From: a virus | DNA: 64,000 nucleotides | Virus record (IMG/VR): IMGVR_UViG_3300031673_011235 | Span: 1-64,000 of that record | Strand: one strand, 5' to 3' | Shown: piece by piece, positions 1,699 through 53,072 of the stretch | Position numbering within the stretch: position 1 is the first letter of the stretch | How the letters are laid out: each line of letters opens with the position of its first letter | Translations under genes and position numbers: made by a program | Notes under the pieces: model-generated | Told to the model about the DNA's origin: nothing | The model's database searches: none | Seen by the model: only the letters and a program-made list of their open reading frames with translations

Positions 1699-2871
1699 AT
1701 GTCAGGCAACAAAATCGAAACAATCAGAGAAAAACTTCAAAACTTGGAAATCGAATTAAACGATCTTTTTATAGAAAGATATGAAGCTGTAAGAGGCTTA
1801 ATCTTAGCTTTGCTAAGTCGAACAAACATATTGTTTCTAGGAACTCCTGGAACAGCAAAATCTATGATGGTTAAAGAGTTTGCAAAACATGTATCGGGAG
1901 CAAACTATTTTGAATGGTTATTGTCCAGATATTCTACGCCGGATGAACTATTTGGCCCAATTTCTGCCAAAGGGCTTATGGAAGACCATTATCGCAGATT
2001 AGTAACTGGAAAATTACCAGAAGCACATTTTGCTTTTCTTGATGAAATATTTAAAGCAAATACAGGAATTCTAAATGCCCTCCTTTCGTTAGCCAACGAA
2101 AGGATTTTTTACAATGATGGTAAGCCTGAACAAAGTTCGTTACTGTGTTTGGTTGGGGCTTCAAATGAAGTGCCTGAAGATTCAGACAACCTCGACGCAC
2201 TTTTTGATCGGTTTCATTTAAAATATAAAGTGGATCCCATTCAGGAAACTTCTGAATTTCTTCGAATGTTAGAATTAAATGAGACTAATGGTATACCTAA
2301 AAATATTATACAAATAGAAGAACTTAAGTTAGCTCAAACCGATATCTATACTGTTGAACTCAGCAAAGGGATGTTTGAGATGTTTAGTAAAGTACGAAAA
2401 TCCCTAGATAGTAATGGTATCAAAGTTTCTGATAGAACATATAAAATTGCGGTACGCATAACTAGAGCAGAAGCTTGGTTAAGAGGGTCAAAAATTGTTG
2501 AAGAAGGAGATTTCGAGATCCTAAAACATTTATTTTGGCAGGATCCTGATAAGATAAAGAAAGTCCACTCAACTATTATTGACCTAACTAATCCAGAACG
2601 TAATAAAATAGAAGAAATATTTAATTCTTGCGTTAAAATGTCCAATGATATTGTAAAACTTACTGATAAAACCAAACGGAGAGACGAAGGTTTTGATGCT
2701 CTTACAAAATTACGTACCGCCAGAGATAATATGAGCAAACATATTAAGACAATGAGTAAAAAGGGAAAAGACACCAAAGCCATGACCGAACTAGTGGAAA
2801 AAGTTAACAAATTAACTTCTGATTTAATGAAAAAAGCTGTCGGTATGGATTTAACATTGGATGGTGTTTAA
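1699..2871 (+). CDS. MoxR-family AAA+ ATPase
   Basis: AAA+ ATPase of the MoxR/RavA/CobS type, 390 aa. The Walker A motif GTPGTAKS is at about residues 48-55. Walker B is FAFLDEIFKANTGILNALL at about 112-130, with the MoxR-type Glu-Ile-Phe-Lys. It is followed by the sensor region LVGASNEVPED and an arginine-finger context (DALFDRFHLKY). Family members act as chaperone-like ATPases that assemble or activate complexes with a VWA partner. The very next gene, starting one base after this stop, is that VWA partner. Similar ATPase-VWA pairs are common in large phages, where their role is not settled. An upstream TAGGAGA supports the start. Confidence 0.9.
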   Translation: MSGNKIETIREKLQNLEIELNDLFIERYEAVRGLILALLSRTNILFLGTPGTAKSMMVKEFAKHVSGANYFEWLLSRYSTPDELFGPISAKGLMEDHYRRLVTGKLPEAHFAFLDEIFKANTGILNALLSLANERIFYNDGKPEQSSLLCLVGASNEVPEDSDNLDALFDRFHLKYKVDPIQETSEFLRMLELNETNGIPKNIIQIEELKLAQTDIYTVELSKGMFEMFSKVRKSLDSNGIKVSDRTYKIAVRITRAEAWLRGSKIVEEGDFEILKHLFWQDPDKIKKVHSTIIDLTNPERNKIEEIFNSCVKMSNDIVKLTDKTKRRDEGFDALTKLRTARDNMSKHIKTMSKKGKDTKAMTELVEKVNKLTSDLMKKAVGMDLTLDGV

Positions 2872-4431
2872 ATGAAAAAATTAAATAAGAAATCAATTTT
2901 CGATGAAATTGCACAATCTGAGTATAGTATATTTTGTGACGATTTCGATGTAAATGATTATAATGATGTAAAACAAAATTCACACCCTCTACTAGATTTA
3001 GAAAATACAGGAAAAAAAGAATATAAGCCTTTTCTTAAATTAACACAAGATATTTATTCTTCAGTTGCGCGACTACGTCCCCATTTACTAGACGACTGGC
3101 AAATAGCTGGGGAATCTTTATTAAATAAAGAATTTATGAATCAAATCCAAGCGCTTTCTAAACACAAAGAAGTCAGAGTTTTTACCGTTGGTGATAAAGT
3201 TCTCTCAACAATAGCTACGGAAGCTCTTGCCGAAAAAGCTTTGGAAATTATTAAAGAATTAAAAAAGCAAAAAGAAGAGCTTCAAAAATTATTAGACGCC
3301 CAACAACAACAAGCCGAAGAAGAGCAAAAATTACAAGACATGATTGACGCTATGGACGGCAAAGAAGATAAAGATAGTAAAAATACTGGCAGTGCTATAG
3401 CAAAACAAAAAACTACTCTTGAAGAAGCAAAGAAAAAAGTGGAAGAGTTCCATCAGACTTTTAAAGAATCTATGAGGGAACAGAAAGTTCAAGGAATGAT
3501 ATCCTCGGCTATTTCAAAAACAGCTGATTTTGTAAGAGAGGAATCTGAATTTTTGGAAGCTTGGGGATTAGGAGCTTCCGGAAGTTATGAGAGTAAACCT
3601 TATCATGAGAAAATGGAACTAGTTAAAAGATTACGTAGTTCTAGTAAATTAAAAGCCATAGCTAAGTTAGCAGGTCGTTTTAAAAGAATGGCACTACAAC
3701 AACAAAAAGAAAAAATAAAAAAAGGAATAGACGAAATATTTTCTATTCAACGTGGCAGCGATTTATCCAAACTGCTTCCATCTGAAATAACTAAGCTGAA
3801 TGACCCAAACCGTAGACTTGAATTTATGGTAGACCTGGTAGAAAATAAATGTTTACAATATGATCTAAGAGGCAAAGCGAAAAAATCTAAAGGAGCCATC
3901 GTATGTTGTATTGATAATTCAGGCTCAATGAGTGGAGATCCTGAAATTTGGAGTAAAGCCGTAGCCCTAGCTTTACTAGAAGTAGCTATGTCTCAAAAAA
4001 GAAATTTTTTCGTAATTCATTTTTCTTCAGGATATGGCTCACAAAACCTAAAAGTTCATGAATTCTTAAAAAATAAACCGCCCAGTATAGAAGAAATTCT
4101 GGCTATGGCGGAATATTTTGAAGGAGGTGGAACTGAATTTGAGCCACCACTGAATAAAGCTAAGGACGTTATTGATACAGAAACTAATTACTCTAAAGCT
4201 GACATAGTGTTTATTACTGATGGTGAAGCAGCAGTACGTGATTCCTGGTTAGTAAAATATAAGGAATGGAAGAAAAGCAATAAAGTGTCTATTTATAGCG
4301 TTTTAATAGAGGGCGGTTGGAGTTTTTTCTCAAAAACTCTGGATGAATTTTCTGATCAAATACTCAAATTGTCAGATATTAGGGGAGATCAACAAGATAC
4401 AATAGCTTTAGGCATTTTTGATTCAATTTAA
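2872..4431 (+). CDS. VWA-domain protein, CobT-like MoxR partner
   Basis: 519 aa. The N-terminal half is a long charged coiled coil (about residues 110-210, KEELQKLLDAQQQQAEEEQ). The C-terminal half is a von Willebrand A domain with the MIDAS motif DNSGSMSG (D-x-S-x-S, about residue 348), the MIDAS threonine in GGGTEFEPPL and the aspartate in FITDGEAAV. VWA proteins of this kind bind MoxR ATPases through a divalent metal site. Its ATG directly follows the MoxR TAA, so the two are translationally coupled. Substrate in the phage cycle is unknown. Confidence 0.88.
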   Translation: MKKLNKKSIFDEIAQSEYSIFCDDFDVNDYNDVKQNSHPLLDLENTGKKEYKPFLKLTQDIYSSVARLRPHLLDDWQIAGESLLNKEFMNQIQALSKHKEVRVFTVGDKVLSTIATEALAEKALEIIKELKKQKEELQKLLDAQQQQAEEEQKLQDMIDAMDGKEDKDSKNTGSAIAKQKTTLEEAKKKVEEFHQTFKESMREQKVQGMISSAISKTADFVREESEFLEAWGLGASGSYESKPYHEKMELVKRLRSSSKLKAIAKLAGRFKRMALQQQKEKIKKGIDEIFSIQRGSDLSKLLPSEITKLNDPNRRLEFMVDLVENKCLQYDLRGKAKKSKGAIVCCIDNSGSMSGDPEIWSKAVALALLEVAMSQKRNFFVIHFSSGYGSQNLKVHEFLKNKPPSIEEILAMAEYFEGGGTEFEPPLNKAKDVIDTETNYSKADIVFITDGEAAVRDSWLVKYKEWKKSNKVSIYSVLIEGGWSFFSKTLDEFSDQILKLSDIRGDQQDTIALGIFDSI

Positions 4432-4670
4432 TGGCAACAAAAATATTCCATCTATAAATTATTTTGCAACCATGCAATAGTTAGATGAAACGTCTTGCAA
4501 TTACTTCCAATTATAATTTATTAACAGAACAATTTATTTCCCATAAGATTAGGATGTTCTGAAGAATTAGAATGTATAGGGGAATTTTAGGTCACCACCT
4601 CCGATTATTAAAGACAATAATTTTTTAGCAGCGTAAATTTCGACGACTTCAGAAATGAGGGCGGGACGAA
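4432..4670 (+). other. Intergenic region with no recognisable gene
   Basis: AT-rich stretch after the VWA gene with no credible start-plus-ribosome-site combination. An 86-codon frame at 4655-4915 has no Shine-Dalgarno, an unusual composition, and runs straight through the hairpins described next, so it is not called. It may carry the promoter of the retron operon, but I could not identify one with confidence. Confidence 0.5.
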
Positions 4671-4742
4671 TATATTTGATGCTTCGTCAAATTGAATATA
4701 CTATGGTACCACCTATAGCCATAATCAATTATGATCATGGCA

Positions 4743-4837
4743 CAGCAATCTTACTTAACACCAATGCAAATGCATTCGCATTTGTCCTTTCTCACGTCAT
4801 TCTGCGTTCGAAAGATTGGTGTTATCGTCGATTGCTG
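4743..4837 (+). ncRNA. Predicted three-way-junction structured RNA (or ssDNA) element
   Basis: Closing stem CAGCAATC (4743-4750) / GATTGCTG (4830-4837), a symmetric 5x5 internal loop, then TAACACCAAT (4756-4765) / ATTGGTGTTA (4815-4824). These enclose two hairpins: CAAATGC-attc-GCATTTG (4767-4784), and CTTTC / GAAAG (4787-4791 / 4810-4814) with an inner ACG/CGT. All listed pairs are perfect. Hairpins at 4675-4698 and 4719-4740 flank it on the left, and ones at about 4842-4861 and 4872-4890 on the right. No known RNA family recognised. It may belong to the retron locus 200 bases downstream. Confidence 0.5.
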
Positions 4838-4916
4838 AAGGGACCCGACGCTGCCGGGGTCGCGGGTACACAAGTAACCAGGCTTGTTACTAAAACAATA
4901 CTAAAACAAGAATGAA

Positions 4917-4934
4917 ATAAGGTTTAAACCTTAT
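4917..4934. repeat. 18-bp perfect palindrome
   Basis: ATAAGGTTT followed by its exact reverse complement, with no spacer. It lies between the structured block and the retron RNA. It could be a protein-binding site or a remnant boundary; nothing in the sequence decides. Confidence 0.6.
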
Positions 4935-4993
4935 AGATCTTTAATGCAAAATGATGTGCTAAATTAATTAATGCTTTTTTAATCGGTATCAAG

Positions 4994-5023
4994 CCTTGCT
5001 TTATAATGAAGCAAGGTATTTTT
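4994..5023 (+). promoter_or_regulatory. Hairpin with T-rich tail and TATAAT in its loop, just upstream of the retron RNA
   Basis: Stem CCTTGCTT (4994-5001) / AAGCAAGG (5009-5016) followed by TATTTTTA looks like a terminator. The seven-base loop is TATAATG, a perfect -10 hexamer that would start transcription near 5013, shortly before the retron a1 repeat at 5032. The -35 (TTTAAT about 4979) is weak. The same nesting of promoter and terminator is seen at 1061-1099. Confidence 0.45.
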
Positions 5024-5031
5024 ATGAAAAA

Positions 5032-5188
5032 CTTGTTACAGATTTATGTAACACAATTACACAAAGATGATTCGTCTTTGTTTTAAATTTTTGATATTAG
5101 CAAATATCAATACGAAAATGTTAACTTTACGAGATGAATAACTGCGTTATTTATCTCTAAAAGTAAACATGTTCGTCAGTGTAACAAG
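5032..5188 (+). ncRNA. Predicted retron msr-msd RNA
   Basis: Terminal inverted repeats a1 CTTGTTACA (5032-5040) and a2 TGTAACAAG (5180-5188) pair perfectly. The base right after a1 is G (5041), the usual place of the branching guanosine. The msr-like part has hairpins ACAAAGA/TCTTTGT (5061-5081) and TTGATATT-AGCA-AATATCAA (5091-5110). The msd is a long hairpin with arms 5113-5142 and 5146-5175 (25 of 30 positions paired) and loop TGC. The order a1, msr hairpins, long msd hairpin, a2, RT gene is the retron plan. Reverse transcription from near a2 would give msDNA of about 65-70 nt. Confidence 0.78.
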
Positions 5189-5213
5189 AAAAAATTTTTA
5201 ATTGTAGTATTTT

Positions 5214-5298
5214 AATGGTGATTCGCCATTATAAAATTTTAAGTTCACTCAAACGCTGCACAGGCTAATTTATCACTAGGGCCTGCTTCCAGCAGGAG
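5214..5298 (+). promoter_or_regulatory. Retron RT leader with hairpin over the ribosome-binding site
   Basis: A small hairpin AATGG / CCATT (5214-5230) is followed by CCTGCT-TCC-AGCAGG (5282-5296). Its 3' arm contains the AGGAG Shine-Dalgarno (5294-5298) of the RT. An upstream CAGGC (5261-5265) can pair instead with GCCTG (5281-5285), which would open the RBS hairpin. The RBS-to-ATG spacing is a long 14 bases. This suggests translational control of the RT; it is a paper fold only. Confidence 0.45.
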
Positions 5299-5312
5299 TA
5301 CAATTAATTAAT

Positions 5313-6212
5313 ATGACAACTAAATTATTAACTATTTATGAGATATTAAATACTACTAAAGAAGAAATAGAAGATATTATAAATAATAAAAGCTCATATT
5401 ACACTTCTTATCCTATCAAAAAACGTTCAGGCAGCCCTCGTTATATTGACGCACCGTTCGGTAAATTAAAATCTTTACAAAATTCTATTTTATATAATAT
5501 TTTGTATAAATTTTCTTCACATCCTATCGCTCACGGATTTGTCAAAAATAGAAGCCCGATAACTAACGCACGTCAACATGTTGGGGCAAAAATTATAGTT
5601 AGTGTTGATTTAAAAAATTTTTTTAATAGTATAACCCAACAAGTTGTTGCCGATAATTTAAAAAGAATATTAAATAAACAACAAGTAATTAAATTTAAAA
5701 ATGAAGATGAAGAAATAGGTTTTCTTTCAGAAATATTAACATATAAAGGAAGAGTACCACAAGGCGCACCAACCTCGCCGATCATTAGTAATATTGTGTG
5801 TCATGGACTAGATAAATCTTTAAATCAGTTACAAATAAAACAAAAATGTATTATCAGTAGATATGCCGACGATATTAGTATTTCTAGTAATAAAATTATG
5901 GCAATCGGAGAAGTAATACGAACTGTAGCCGGCACAGCTAAAGGTTTTGGATTCAGATTAAATTCAAAAAAAACAAAAATAAAAAAACAATCTAGGCGAA
6001 TGGTGGTTACGGGCATAGTGGTGAACAAAAAAATAAATATAAACAAAACTACTTATAGAAATCTCCGAGCCAAACTGCATAATTTTATAAAGTCTGGTCA
6101 TAGCTTAAATATAAATGAATATCAAAAATTAAGAGGACAAATAGAATGGATACGCAGACTGCACCCACAGAGAGGAAAATTCTTTCTAGAACAACTTTCA
6201 AAAGTGAAATAG
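5313..6212 (+). CDS. Retron-type reverse transcriptase
   Basis: 299 aa, a normal length for retron RTs. Features in order: the retron hallmark NAxxH (NARQH, residues 85-89), the first catalytic Asp in VSVDLKNFF (D98-99 region), PQGAPTSP (149-156), the catalytic YADD (184-187), LNSKKTKI, and the retron VTG motif (232-234, VVTGIVV). The C-terminal thumb has LRGQIEWIRRLHP. The VTG and NAxxH motifs and the upstream msr-msd fold separate it from group II intron and DGR enzymes. It would bind the RNA at 5032-5188 and prime from its internal guanosine to make a branched RNA-DNA. The last 67 bases overlap the next gene, indicating co-translation. Confidence 0.92.
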   Translation: MTTKLLTIYEILNTTKEEIEDIINNKSSYYTSYPIKKRSGSPRYIDAPFGKLKSLQNSILYNILYKFSSHPIAHGFVKNRSPITNARQHVGAKIIVSVDLKNFFNSITQQVVADNLKRILNKQQVIKFKNEDEEIGFLSEILTYKGRVPQGAPTSPIISNIVCHGLDKSLNQLQIKQKCIISRYADDISISSNKIMAIGEVIRTVAGTAKGFGFRLNSKKTKIKKQSRRMVVTGIVVNKKININKTTYRNLRAKLHNFIKSGHSLNINEYQKLRGQIEWIRRLHPQRGKFFLEQLSKVK

Positions 6213-6628
6213 AGGAACAAATAAAATACGTAAGAGCCAACACTATTCTAGAACTTAGGTTACCTTTACCGATTGCATTAATAGAAGAAATAGACTCAAT
6301 AAAAGACACTGAAACAATAATCAGAGTTAATTGGATAAATCCTGAAAATGAAAAAATCTTGAATGTTTTATCTTGTATGCAGTTTTCAATTTCTAATTAT
6401 GCTGAGAGAGGTTTTCGTTTGGCTTTGTATCAAGAACTAACGAAATATGATGGATCGCCTTATGAATTACAATCTGGCTGTGAGTATATAACTGTAAAAG
6501 ATCAAGACGTGATAATTGAAAAAATAGTTGTGAACATGCAACAACTCGACAACATGTTAAGGGAATTTGTGGAACATTGTAACGAATTCTATATTTTACA
6601 TTGCAAGCCATACGAAGAACAACTCTAA
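6146..6628 (+). CDS. Unknown 160-aa protein overlapping the retron RT; candidate retron accessory or effector
   Basis: Start ATG 6146 is supported by AGAGGA about 8 bases upstream, inside the RT coding sequence, giving a 67-base overlap in another frame. The protein is mixed alpha/beta and acidic, with no signal peptide or membrane segment. I recognise no domain; HNH, TOPRIM, nucleotidyltransferase and two-TM effector signatures were looked for and not seen. Retron defence systems usually encode an effector next to the RT, so position alone makes this the first candidate. It could instead be an unrelated phage gene. Confidence 0.72.
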   Translation: MDTQTAPTERKILSRTTFKSEIEEQIKYVRANTILELRLPLPIALIEEIDSIKDTETIIRVNWINPENEKILNVLSCMQFSISNYAERGFRLALYQELTKYDGSPYELQSGCEYITVKDQDVIIEKIVVNMQQLDNMLREFVEHCNEFYILHCKPYEEQL

Positions 6629-52366: not shown

Positions 52367-52966
52367 ATGTTTGGTAGAATACCGCGACCAATACCAGAAG
52401 TTGTTTCTGTGCAAAACAGTGGTACAAATGTACCAACACCGCACGAGATAATTGACGACGGTAAAGAAATTCCAGACGAGCGTTATCTTCAAAAAGCTCG
52501 GGATATAGGAATTATTAGTGAAGCAATAACTGATGGAATATTAAAAAATATTTTTAAAACCGAAAAAATATTAATATATCCTTATGTGGAGGTTACGAAA
52601 TTTCTAAGAAAGATGGCTGATCAGGAAAACACACATTGGTACTGGATACCGGTTAGGGTAAAAGATATGGAGAATGCAGAACGACGCGCCAAATTTATAG
52701 GACAGGGAATCCATGCTATAGAGCCCGTACATTACGCGCGTTTCTGCAATAATAGTACGTATCCCAGAGCTATTCCTGACAGAGTTTTACAAAAAATTAC
52801 TACAATCGTAAACAAGTATCCTACTCCTAATGACCTAGTATTTTATATAGGGGACTATCGTTGCAGAACTCAACCAGATCCTTTTTTGGCAGTAACTACG
52901 ATAAATACTGCTAGTATTTTTGTAATCGATCATTGGGATGAACCGGGATTTAGAATAGAGGAATAA
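52367..52966 (+). CDS. Hypothetical 199-aa protein
   Basis: AAGGAAGGAAA ribosome site. N-terminal 30 residues are Pro-rich (RIPRPIPEVVSV), the rest alpha/beta with RCRTQPDPFLAVTTINTAS. No family recognised; in a replication operon. Confidence 0.65.
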   Translation: MFGRIPRPIPEVVSVQNSGTNVPTPHEIIDDGKEIPDERYLQKARDIGIISEAITDGILKNIFKTEKILIYPYVEVTKFLRKMADQENTHWYWIPVRVKDMENAERRAKFIGQGIHAIEPVHYARFCNNSTYPRAIPDRVLQKITTIVNKYPTPNDLVFYIGDYRCRTQPDPFLAVTTINTASIFVIDHWDEPGFRIEE

Positions 52967-52973
52967 ATTTACA

Positions 52974-53049
52974 AATATGGTGTGAGTATTGAGACATGCT
53001 CGATGCAGGTTAAACTCCTACCTTGGGCATGTCTCATCCACACCATATT
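52974..53049 (+). ncRNA. Strong intergenic hairpin element
   Basis: AATATGGTGTG (52974-52984) pairs with CACACCATATT (53039-53049). After a 6x3 internal loop, GAGACATGC (52991-52999) pairs with GCATGTCTC (53027-53035), with a further AGGT/ACCT inside the loop. Twenty perfect pairs in two stems. There is no T tract, so it is not a simple terminator. Not a tRNA. Followed 24 bases later by a TGGTATAAGA promoter motif. Possible RNA element, processing site or replication signal. Confidence 0.6.
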
Positions 53050-53072
53050 GTTATATACTATATTTAATTTTA

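Follow-up and report, generated by a model that had tools for sequence, protein, structure and literature searches.

Retrons are usually described as one reverse transcriptase (RT) with one template RNA. Engineered arrays of retron templates for multi-site editing are, by its title, the subject of a 2024 study by Gonzalez-Delgado et al., and one RT is said to serve several templates in them. The available text of PMC6868368 gives retron noncoding RNAs (ncRNAs) ends of about 8 to 30 complementary bases (the a1 and a2 arms). It places the priming G inside or just after this end stem, in contexts that include TAGC, CAGA, and CAGC. The msr hairpins it describes have 7 to 10 base pairs (bp) and loops of 3 to 10 nucleotides (nt); the Ec86 RT binds an 8-bp stem with a three-base loop, and the Ec73 RT binds a 9-bp stem with a three-base loop. 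It also describes Retron-Nex1 (Ne160) from Nannocystis, with several msr-msd copies in one element, apparently as duplicated repeats, and no RT within a kilobase. In the available part of PMC8989520, complementary DNA (cDNA) is initiated from the 2'-OH of a conserved guanosine that adjoins the a1/a2 repeats. We analyzed a viral window of 64,000 nt (positions 1 to 64,000 of the 81,655-base IMG/VR record IMGVR_UViG_3300031673_011235). It contains a folded element at 4743 to 4837, in the gap before an RT gene. This gap (4432 to 5312, 881 bases) probably carries at least three retron ncRNAs arrayed in tandem for a single RT, with conflict-related multicopy single-stranded DNAs (msDNAs) as the most likely purpose.

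The gap holds at least three consecutive units with retron anatomy, W1, W2, and W3 (Table 1). Each unit contains paired a1 and a2 arms, a G directly after a1, and a triloop hairpin with a stem of 8, 9, and 8 bp, respectively. The G contexts of W1 and W2 are among those quoted in the available text of PMC6868368, and the TAGT of W3 is absent from the quoted ones. The units fit the published anatomy in those passages, except for the multi-branched msd of W1, its 7-bp core, and the W3 context. W2 contains one long msd hairpin, and that of W3 is weak (DNA fold z -0.9). The array ends 5 bases before the RT start. The likely RT ribosome-binding site, AGGAG at 5294 to 5298, lies inside W3, so the folding of W3 may affect RT translation.

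A strict detector was used to find such units. Its rule was an a1 arm ending in A, then G; a triloop hairpin; and G, then an a2 arm starting with T. It retrieved only W1, W2, and W3 from both strands of the window. Against shuffled flanks, the W1 core arms (4624-4630/4957-4963) gave p 0.015 with the full rule. The arms gave p 0.030 with the G rule only and 0.001 with the full rule for W2, and p 0.020 and 0.001 for W3. The outer arms of W1 (4600-4623/4964-4987) also pair, at -15.1 kcal/mol (p 0.001); they were not used by the detector and were picked after the fold had been seen. The whole W1 duplex, core plus outer arms (4600-4630 with 4957-4987), has -22.3 kcal/mol (p 0.0005). An alternative a1/a2 pair for W1, 4628-4634/4848-4854, was rejected because it does not follow the A-then-G and G-then-T rule.

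The element at 4743 to 4837 lies within W1. Its fold of two nested stems around a symmetric internal loop, enclosing two hairpins, was reproduced as first described. The minimum free energy was -38.0 kcal/mol on the + strand, against -15.4 +/- 3.0 for shuffles (z -7.46), and 0 of 200 shuffles were as stable. A scan of both strands in 6391 overlapping windows of 95 bases placed it with the few most stable stretches of that size in the 64 kb. The place at 4741 ranked fifth by raw energy there, and its best fold was on the minus strand (-34.8 kcal/mol, z -6.05). Among the 25 places listed, just 52961 (z -7.9) and 5091 (z -7.3, in the neighboring retron RNA) had a lower z. The most stable fold of the scan, 52961-53055 (-40.3 kcal/mol), is a long, almost perfectly paired hairpin that lies around the end of a gene. 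The complement of the element also folds as DNA (z -8.7), as does the complement of the W1 msd, 4693-4956 (z -7.5). A perfect 18-base palindrome is present in the W1 msd at 4917 to 4934.

The initial annotation placed this element upstream of the retron and in no known RNA class. It is better read as the msd part of a retron ncRNA, because the a1 and a2 arms that enclose it come with a G next to a1 and an RT-type triloop hairpin, and because two further units lie downstream. Of the smaller hairpins first reported around it, those at 4719-4740 and 4842-4861 were recovered. The one given as 4675-4698 is really the 8-bp triloop hairpin at 4674-4692, which is the most informative feature of the region. 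The hairpin at 4872-4890 competes with the outer helix of a larger multi-branched fold, 4699-4710/4865-4876. Readings of the element as integron attC, pRNA-like RNA, ribozyme, or riboswitch were weighed on its anatomy and rejected; no such Rfam family matched. The attC box consensus does not fit the element. Rfam yielded two tRNAs and nothing else at gathering score in the whole window, five matches in the gap at a lax threshold (each far under its gathering score), and no match in 14 related loci.

The gap was first described as an otherwise gene-free stretch of 880 bases; the frame at 4655-4915 is the only open reading frame (ORF) of at least 50 amino acids in it. That the region encodes a small protein there, with the folding as a by-product, is hardly credible. 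The frame is open for 86 codons, which favors it. Opposed to this are the fold itself (z -7.5) and the lack of relatives in the fetched loci (tblastn, best E 0.9), of matches in Pfam, PADLOC, or PHROGs, and of an evident Shine-Dalgarno sequence in the 20 bases preceding the frame.

The gene after the gap is, by its sequence, a retron RT, as first proposed. It encodes 299 amino acids with NARQH, YADD, and VVTG motifs. It matches the retron RT models of PADLOC, with RT_XIII as the best, and scores 228.9 bits with NCBIfam retron_St85_RT, slightly below the cut-off of 235. A profile of its clade has the Ec86 RT as its top match in PDB (E 5e-58). The A and H of NAxxH, the T and G of VTG, and both catalytic D residues are invariant or nearly so in 16 RTs.

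Related loci were retrieved from viral contigs with alignment-based RT queries; queries with a single RT or VWA protein sequence retrieved nothing from them. In a midpoint-rooted tree, 24 non-redundant loci, the window and 23 of 42 related loci, form one group with support 98/91. The tree also took in 29 of 80 bacterial RTs and 6 other viral RTs. Clade counts omit five near-identical copies (L097, L109, L110, L112, and L128) and 14 more distant or truncated loci (L123, L129, L130, and 11 others). The RT reading of L119 has 186 amino acids only and was kept as such.

Ahead of these RTs, the gaps abound in hairpins whose stem closes in Y-G, followed by a three-base loop and C-G. In the window and 16 loci, the gaps contain 35 G-C-closed triloop hairpins of 6 bp or more in 11,213 bases (3.1 per kb), against 41 in 88,052 bases (0.47 per kb) in the rest of the same loci. 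Reverse-strand counts of triloops alone are no clean control, since CG-NNN-CG is symmetric. Inverted repeats flank the gap hairpins. When a G was required after the left arm, 20 of 37 beat 95% of shuffles, and 9 of 37 beat 99%.

The strict detector retrieved 29 units from the 1300 bases ahead of each RT in the 24 clade loci, against 0.008 per shuffled locus. It retrieved 0.0 units from 23 downstream regions and 2 units from the clade reverse strand. Eight loci contained none, nine contained one, four contained two, two contained three, and one contained six. At least two units were thus present in 7 of 24 loci, window included. A comparison set was made from L024 to L088 minus L026, with 55 of 64 phage or prophage loci counted; the remainder were too short upstream or repeats. 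It had no unit in 38 loci, one in 16, and two in one (Fisher p 0.0008 for at least two units, 7/24 against 1/55, kinship of loci ignored). The bacterial set was the best 80 of at least 554 relatives, and 76 were counted, the others having fewer than 400 bases upstream. It had no unit in 66 loci, one in 10, and at least two in none (mean 0.13, against 0.072 in shuffles). The laxer detector gave at least two units in 10 of 24 clade loci, against 0 of 480 shuffles. In the positive-control locus L080, the detector picked an Ec86-like unit with arms TGCGCACCCTTA/TAAGGGTGCGCA and hairpin GGATGCTG-TTT-CGGCATCC.

The longest array was found in L089 (= L009) at 2744 to 3791. It contains six consecutive units before one RT, with unrelated msd sequences. 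Their arms have 8 to 12 bp and no more than one G-U pair; each left arm ends in TATA, followed by G, and each right arm begins with TATA. Arrays recur in other assemblies: L112 contains three units like L099, and L097 contains two like L096. No unit was retrieved by the strict detector from L108 or its near-copies L109, L110, and L128, nor by the laxer one from L108. Loci of this type may use another form of ncRNA or have lost it. Outside the clade, L033 has two retron-like units upstream of its RT, at 1516-1660 and 1852-2019. Their arms are alike, with GCCCGCTTA and GCCGCTTA before the G, and arrays may therefore have arisen more than once.

In the three arrays tested, the units of one array resemble each other about as much as shuffles do. 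Recent duplication was therefore rejected for these arrays, and the msDNA products would be expected to differ. Past duplications could also have left the extra units behind as decayed copies, so that only the unit closest to the RT would be active; this is improbable. The variation in unit number from 0 to 6 within the clade agrees with such decay, as does the degenerate look of W0, a possible fourth unit of the window. However, L089 (6 of 6 units) and L099 (3 of 3) keep their triloop hairpins and uninterrupted arms with at most one G-U pair. Arms and hairpins that stay intact in units no more alike than shuffles suggest long maintenance. W0 itself is doubtful as a unit. Its arms pair with p 0.044 (narrow) or 0.062 (broad), the base after a1 is A rather than G, and neither detector recovered it.

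Several results weigh against the tandem array. W1 is the weakest of the three units. Its uninterrupted core has 7 bp only. Its arms gave p 0.43 with the G rule only, and its duplex gave p 0.13 with broad flanks (0.016 and 0.002 with narrower choices). Its msd has several branches where a single hairpin would be usual, and no homologue of it was found in the data collected. The terminator-like hairpin between W1 and W2 means that W1 may be a separate transcript. The region 4300-5400 contains three terminator-like sites, against 0.5 in shuffles; the W2 triloop hairpin is one of the three. The laxer detector gave 5 reverse-strand units next to 32 forward ones in the clade, two units in 3 of the 76 bacterial loci (shuffles come close to this, at 2.1%), and one extra unit in the window, on the minus strand near 19 kb. 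Eight of the 24 clade loci had no unit at either setting. The rule took shape as some of the clade loci were being read and is not independent of them; shuffles, the reverse strand, other retrons, and the rest of the window served as safeguards.

These weak looser tests of W1, the terminator-like site, and the competing folds of 4865-4890 would all agree with another reading. W2, or W2 with W3, would be the sole working ncRNA, and the W1 region would be an independent structured RNA or a regulatory 3' untranslated region ending at 4993-5017. An example is an attenuator or riboswitch-like leader, with the outer helix 4699-4710/4865-4876 competing with 4869-4890. We consider this unlikely. W1 follows every unit rule, its outer arms pair, it has the same triloop hairpin, and arrays are present in 7 of 24 related loci. 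When the gap was compared by blastn with 50,697 phage records, the 15 matches obtained were short (best E 0.07).

Table 1. Coordinates of the features in and around the array of the 64,000-nt window.
Feature	Position	Strand	Remarks
MoxR ATPase and VWA protein pair	1699-4431	+	upstream, in conserved cassette
W0, possible fourth unit, weak or decayed	4438-4590	+	5-bp triloop hairpin 4483-4495
W1, retron ncRNA unit containing the 4743-4837 element	4601-4986	+	strict detector; core a1/a2 TTTAGCA/TGCTAAA
W1 a1 arm	4601-4630	+	pairs with 4957-4986
W1 predicted priming G	4631	+	context CAGC; seen in sequence
W1 msr triloop hairpin, ATTTGATG-CTT-CGTCAAAT	4674-4692	+	8-bp stem, 3-nt loop, YG-NNN-CG closing
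W1 msd, probable upper bound of reverse-transcribed template	4693-4956	+	from anatomy
Three-way junction in W1 msd	4743-4837	+	between triloop hairpin and a2; fold z -7.46
Outer stem of junction	4743-4750/4830-4837	+	8 bp
Internal loop between both stems			5x5
Inner stem of junction	4756-4765/4815-4824	+	10 bp
Two enclosed hairpins	4766-4773/4778-4785 and 4787-4797/4804-4814	+	
W1 a2 arm	4957-4986	+	pairs with 4601-4630
Terminator-like hairpin, then ATTTTT	4993-5017	+	between W1 and W2
W2 unit	5032-5188	+	a1 5032-5040; G 5041 (CAGA); triloop hairpin 5061-5081; msd within 5082-5179; a2 5180-5188
W3 unit	5198-5307	+	a1 5198-5206; G 5207 (TAGT); triloop hairpin 5213-5231; msd within 5232-5298; a2 5299-5307
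Retron RT, 299 amino acids	5313-6212	+	sequence motifs (NARQH, YADD, VVTG)
160-amino-acid protein, candidate partner or effector	6146-6628	+	overlaps RT end

The array is flanked by further genes. A protein of 160 amino acids overlaps the RT end. ORFs in the same place are present in 12 loci, with alignment identity of 14 to 23%. Tblastn (E <= 1e-3) supports a counterpart in 5 of 42 loci (L089, L090, L091, and L114, which are among the 12, plus L101). It has no credible family match, and its AlphaFold model (predicted local distance difference test score 64) has no structural match at E <= 0.001. L015 and L016 (= L099 and L100) both carry arrays but have no such frame listed behind their RT, so the array does not everywhere depend on it. 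Among window proteins searched by tblastn near the 42 related loci, MoxR was found at 20, VWA at 20, and a glycosyltransferase at 27. In Pfam, the MoxR protein has a match to the model for MoxR-vWA-beta-propeller ternary systems, which are conflict related.

The units have retron anatomy, recur in related phages, and are not random. Transcription, RT binding, and synthesis of several msDNAs are predicted from this anatomy. With at least three different retron RNAs ahead of a single RT, one enzyme may copy several small DNAs. Each unit would be transcribed and folded through its a1/a2 pairing. After binding each unit at its triloop hairpin, the RT would start cDNA at the 2'-OH of the G following a1 and proceed through the msd in the direction of the msr. 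The element at 4743-4837 would be the core of the W1 msd and would be copied into single-stranded DNA (ssDNA) of up to 264 nt with the three-way junction kept. W2 and W3 would yield two shorter, unrelated msDNAs.

The several msDNAs may plausibly, though with much doubt, act in conflicts between phages, or between phage and host, as sensors or decoys. Tentatively, the clade could be a phage lineage with multi-template retrons, in which one RT makes as many as six msDNAs of different structure, some of them branched with three-way junctions, as a sensor or decoy set against competing phages or host defenses. If each RT has several distinct templates, a natural msDNA repertoire can expand and diversify. 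The role of msDNA sequence and shape would then be directly testable by swapping or deleting single units. Such arrays would also be natural models for multiplexed ssDNA production, and they would suggest retrons as a maintained tool of some phages and not of hosts alone.

No natural retron in which one RT has several distinct ncRNAs was found in the literature searched, with many subscription papers beyond its reach. By the features tested, the locus is a retron that departs from the usual plan in its number of templates and in the branched W1 msd. The usual single ncRNA per RT is replaced by three units in the window. The closest RT with a solved structure to the window clade is that of Retron-Eco1 (Ec86). 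Retron-Eco1 has one ncRNA per RT and a different effector. In contrast, the window has at least three unrelated ncRNAs, a multi-branched W1 msd, and an unrelated 160-amino-acid neighbor. The two are alike in the a1/a2 arms, the priming G at a1, and the 8-bp msr hairpin with a 3-nt loop, which the RT binds in Retron-Eco1 (as given in the available text of PMC6868368). Unlike the copies of Retron-Nex1, those of the window are distinct in sequence, in tandem, and beside one RT. The engineered arrays are man-made editing constructs, whereas the window is a natural phage locus. Compared with usual retrons, it appears to be new in having several distinct natural templates for one RT and a branched msd in W1.
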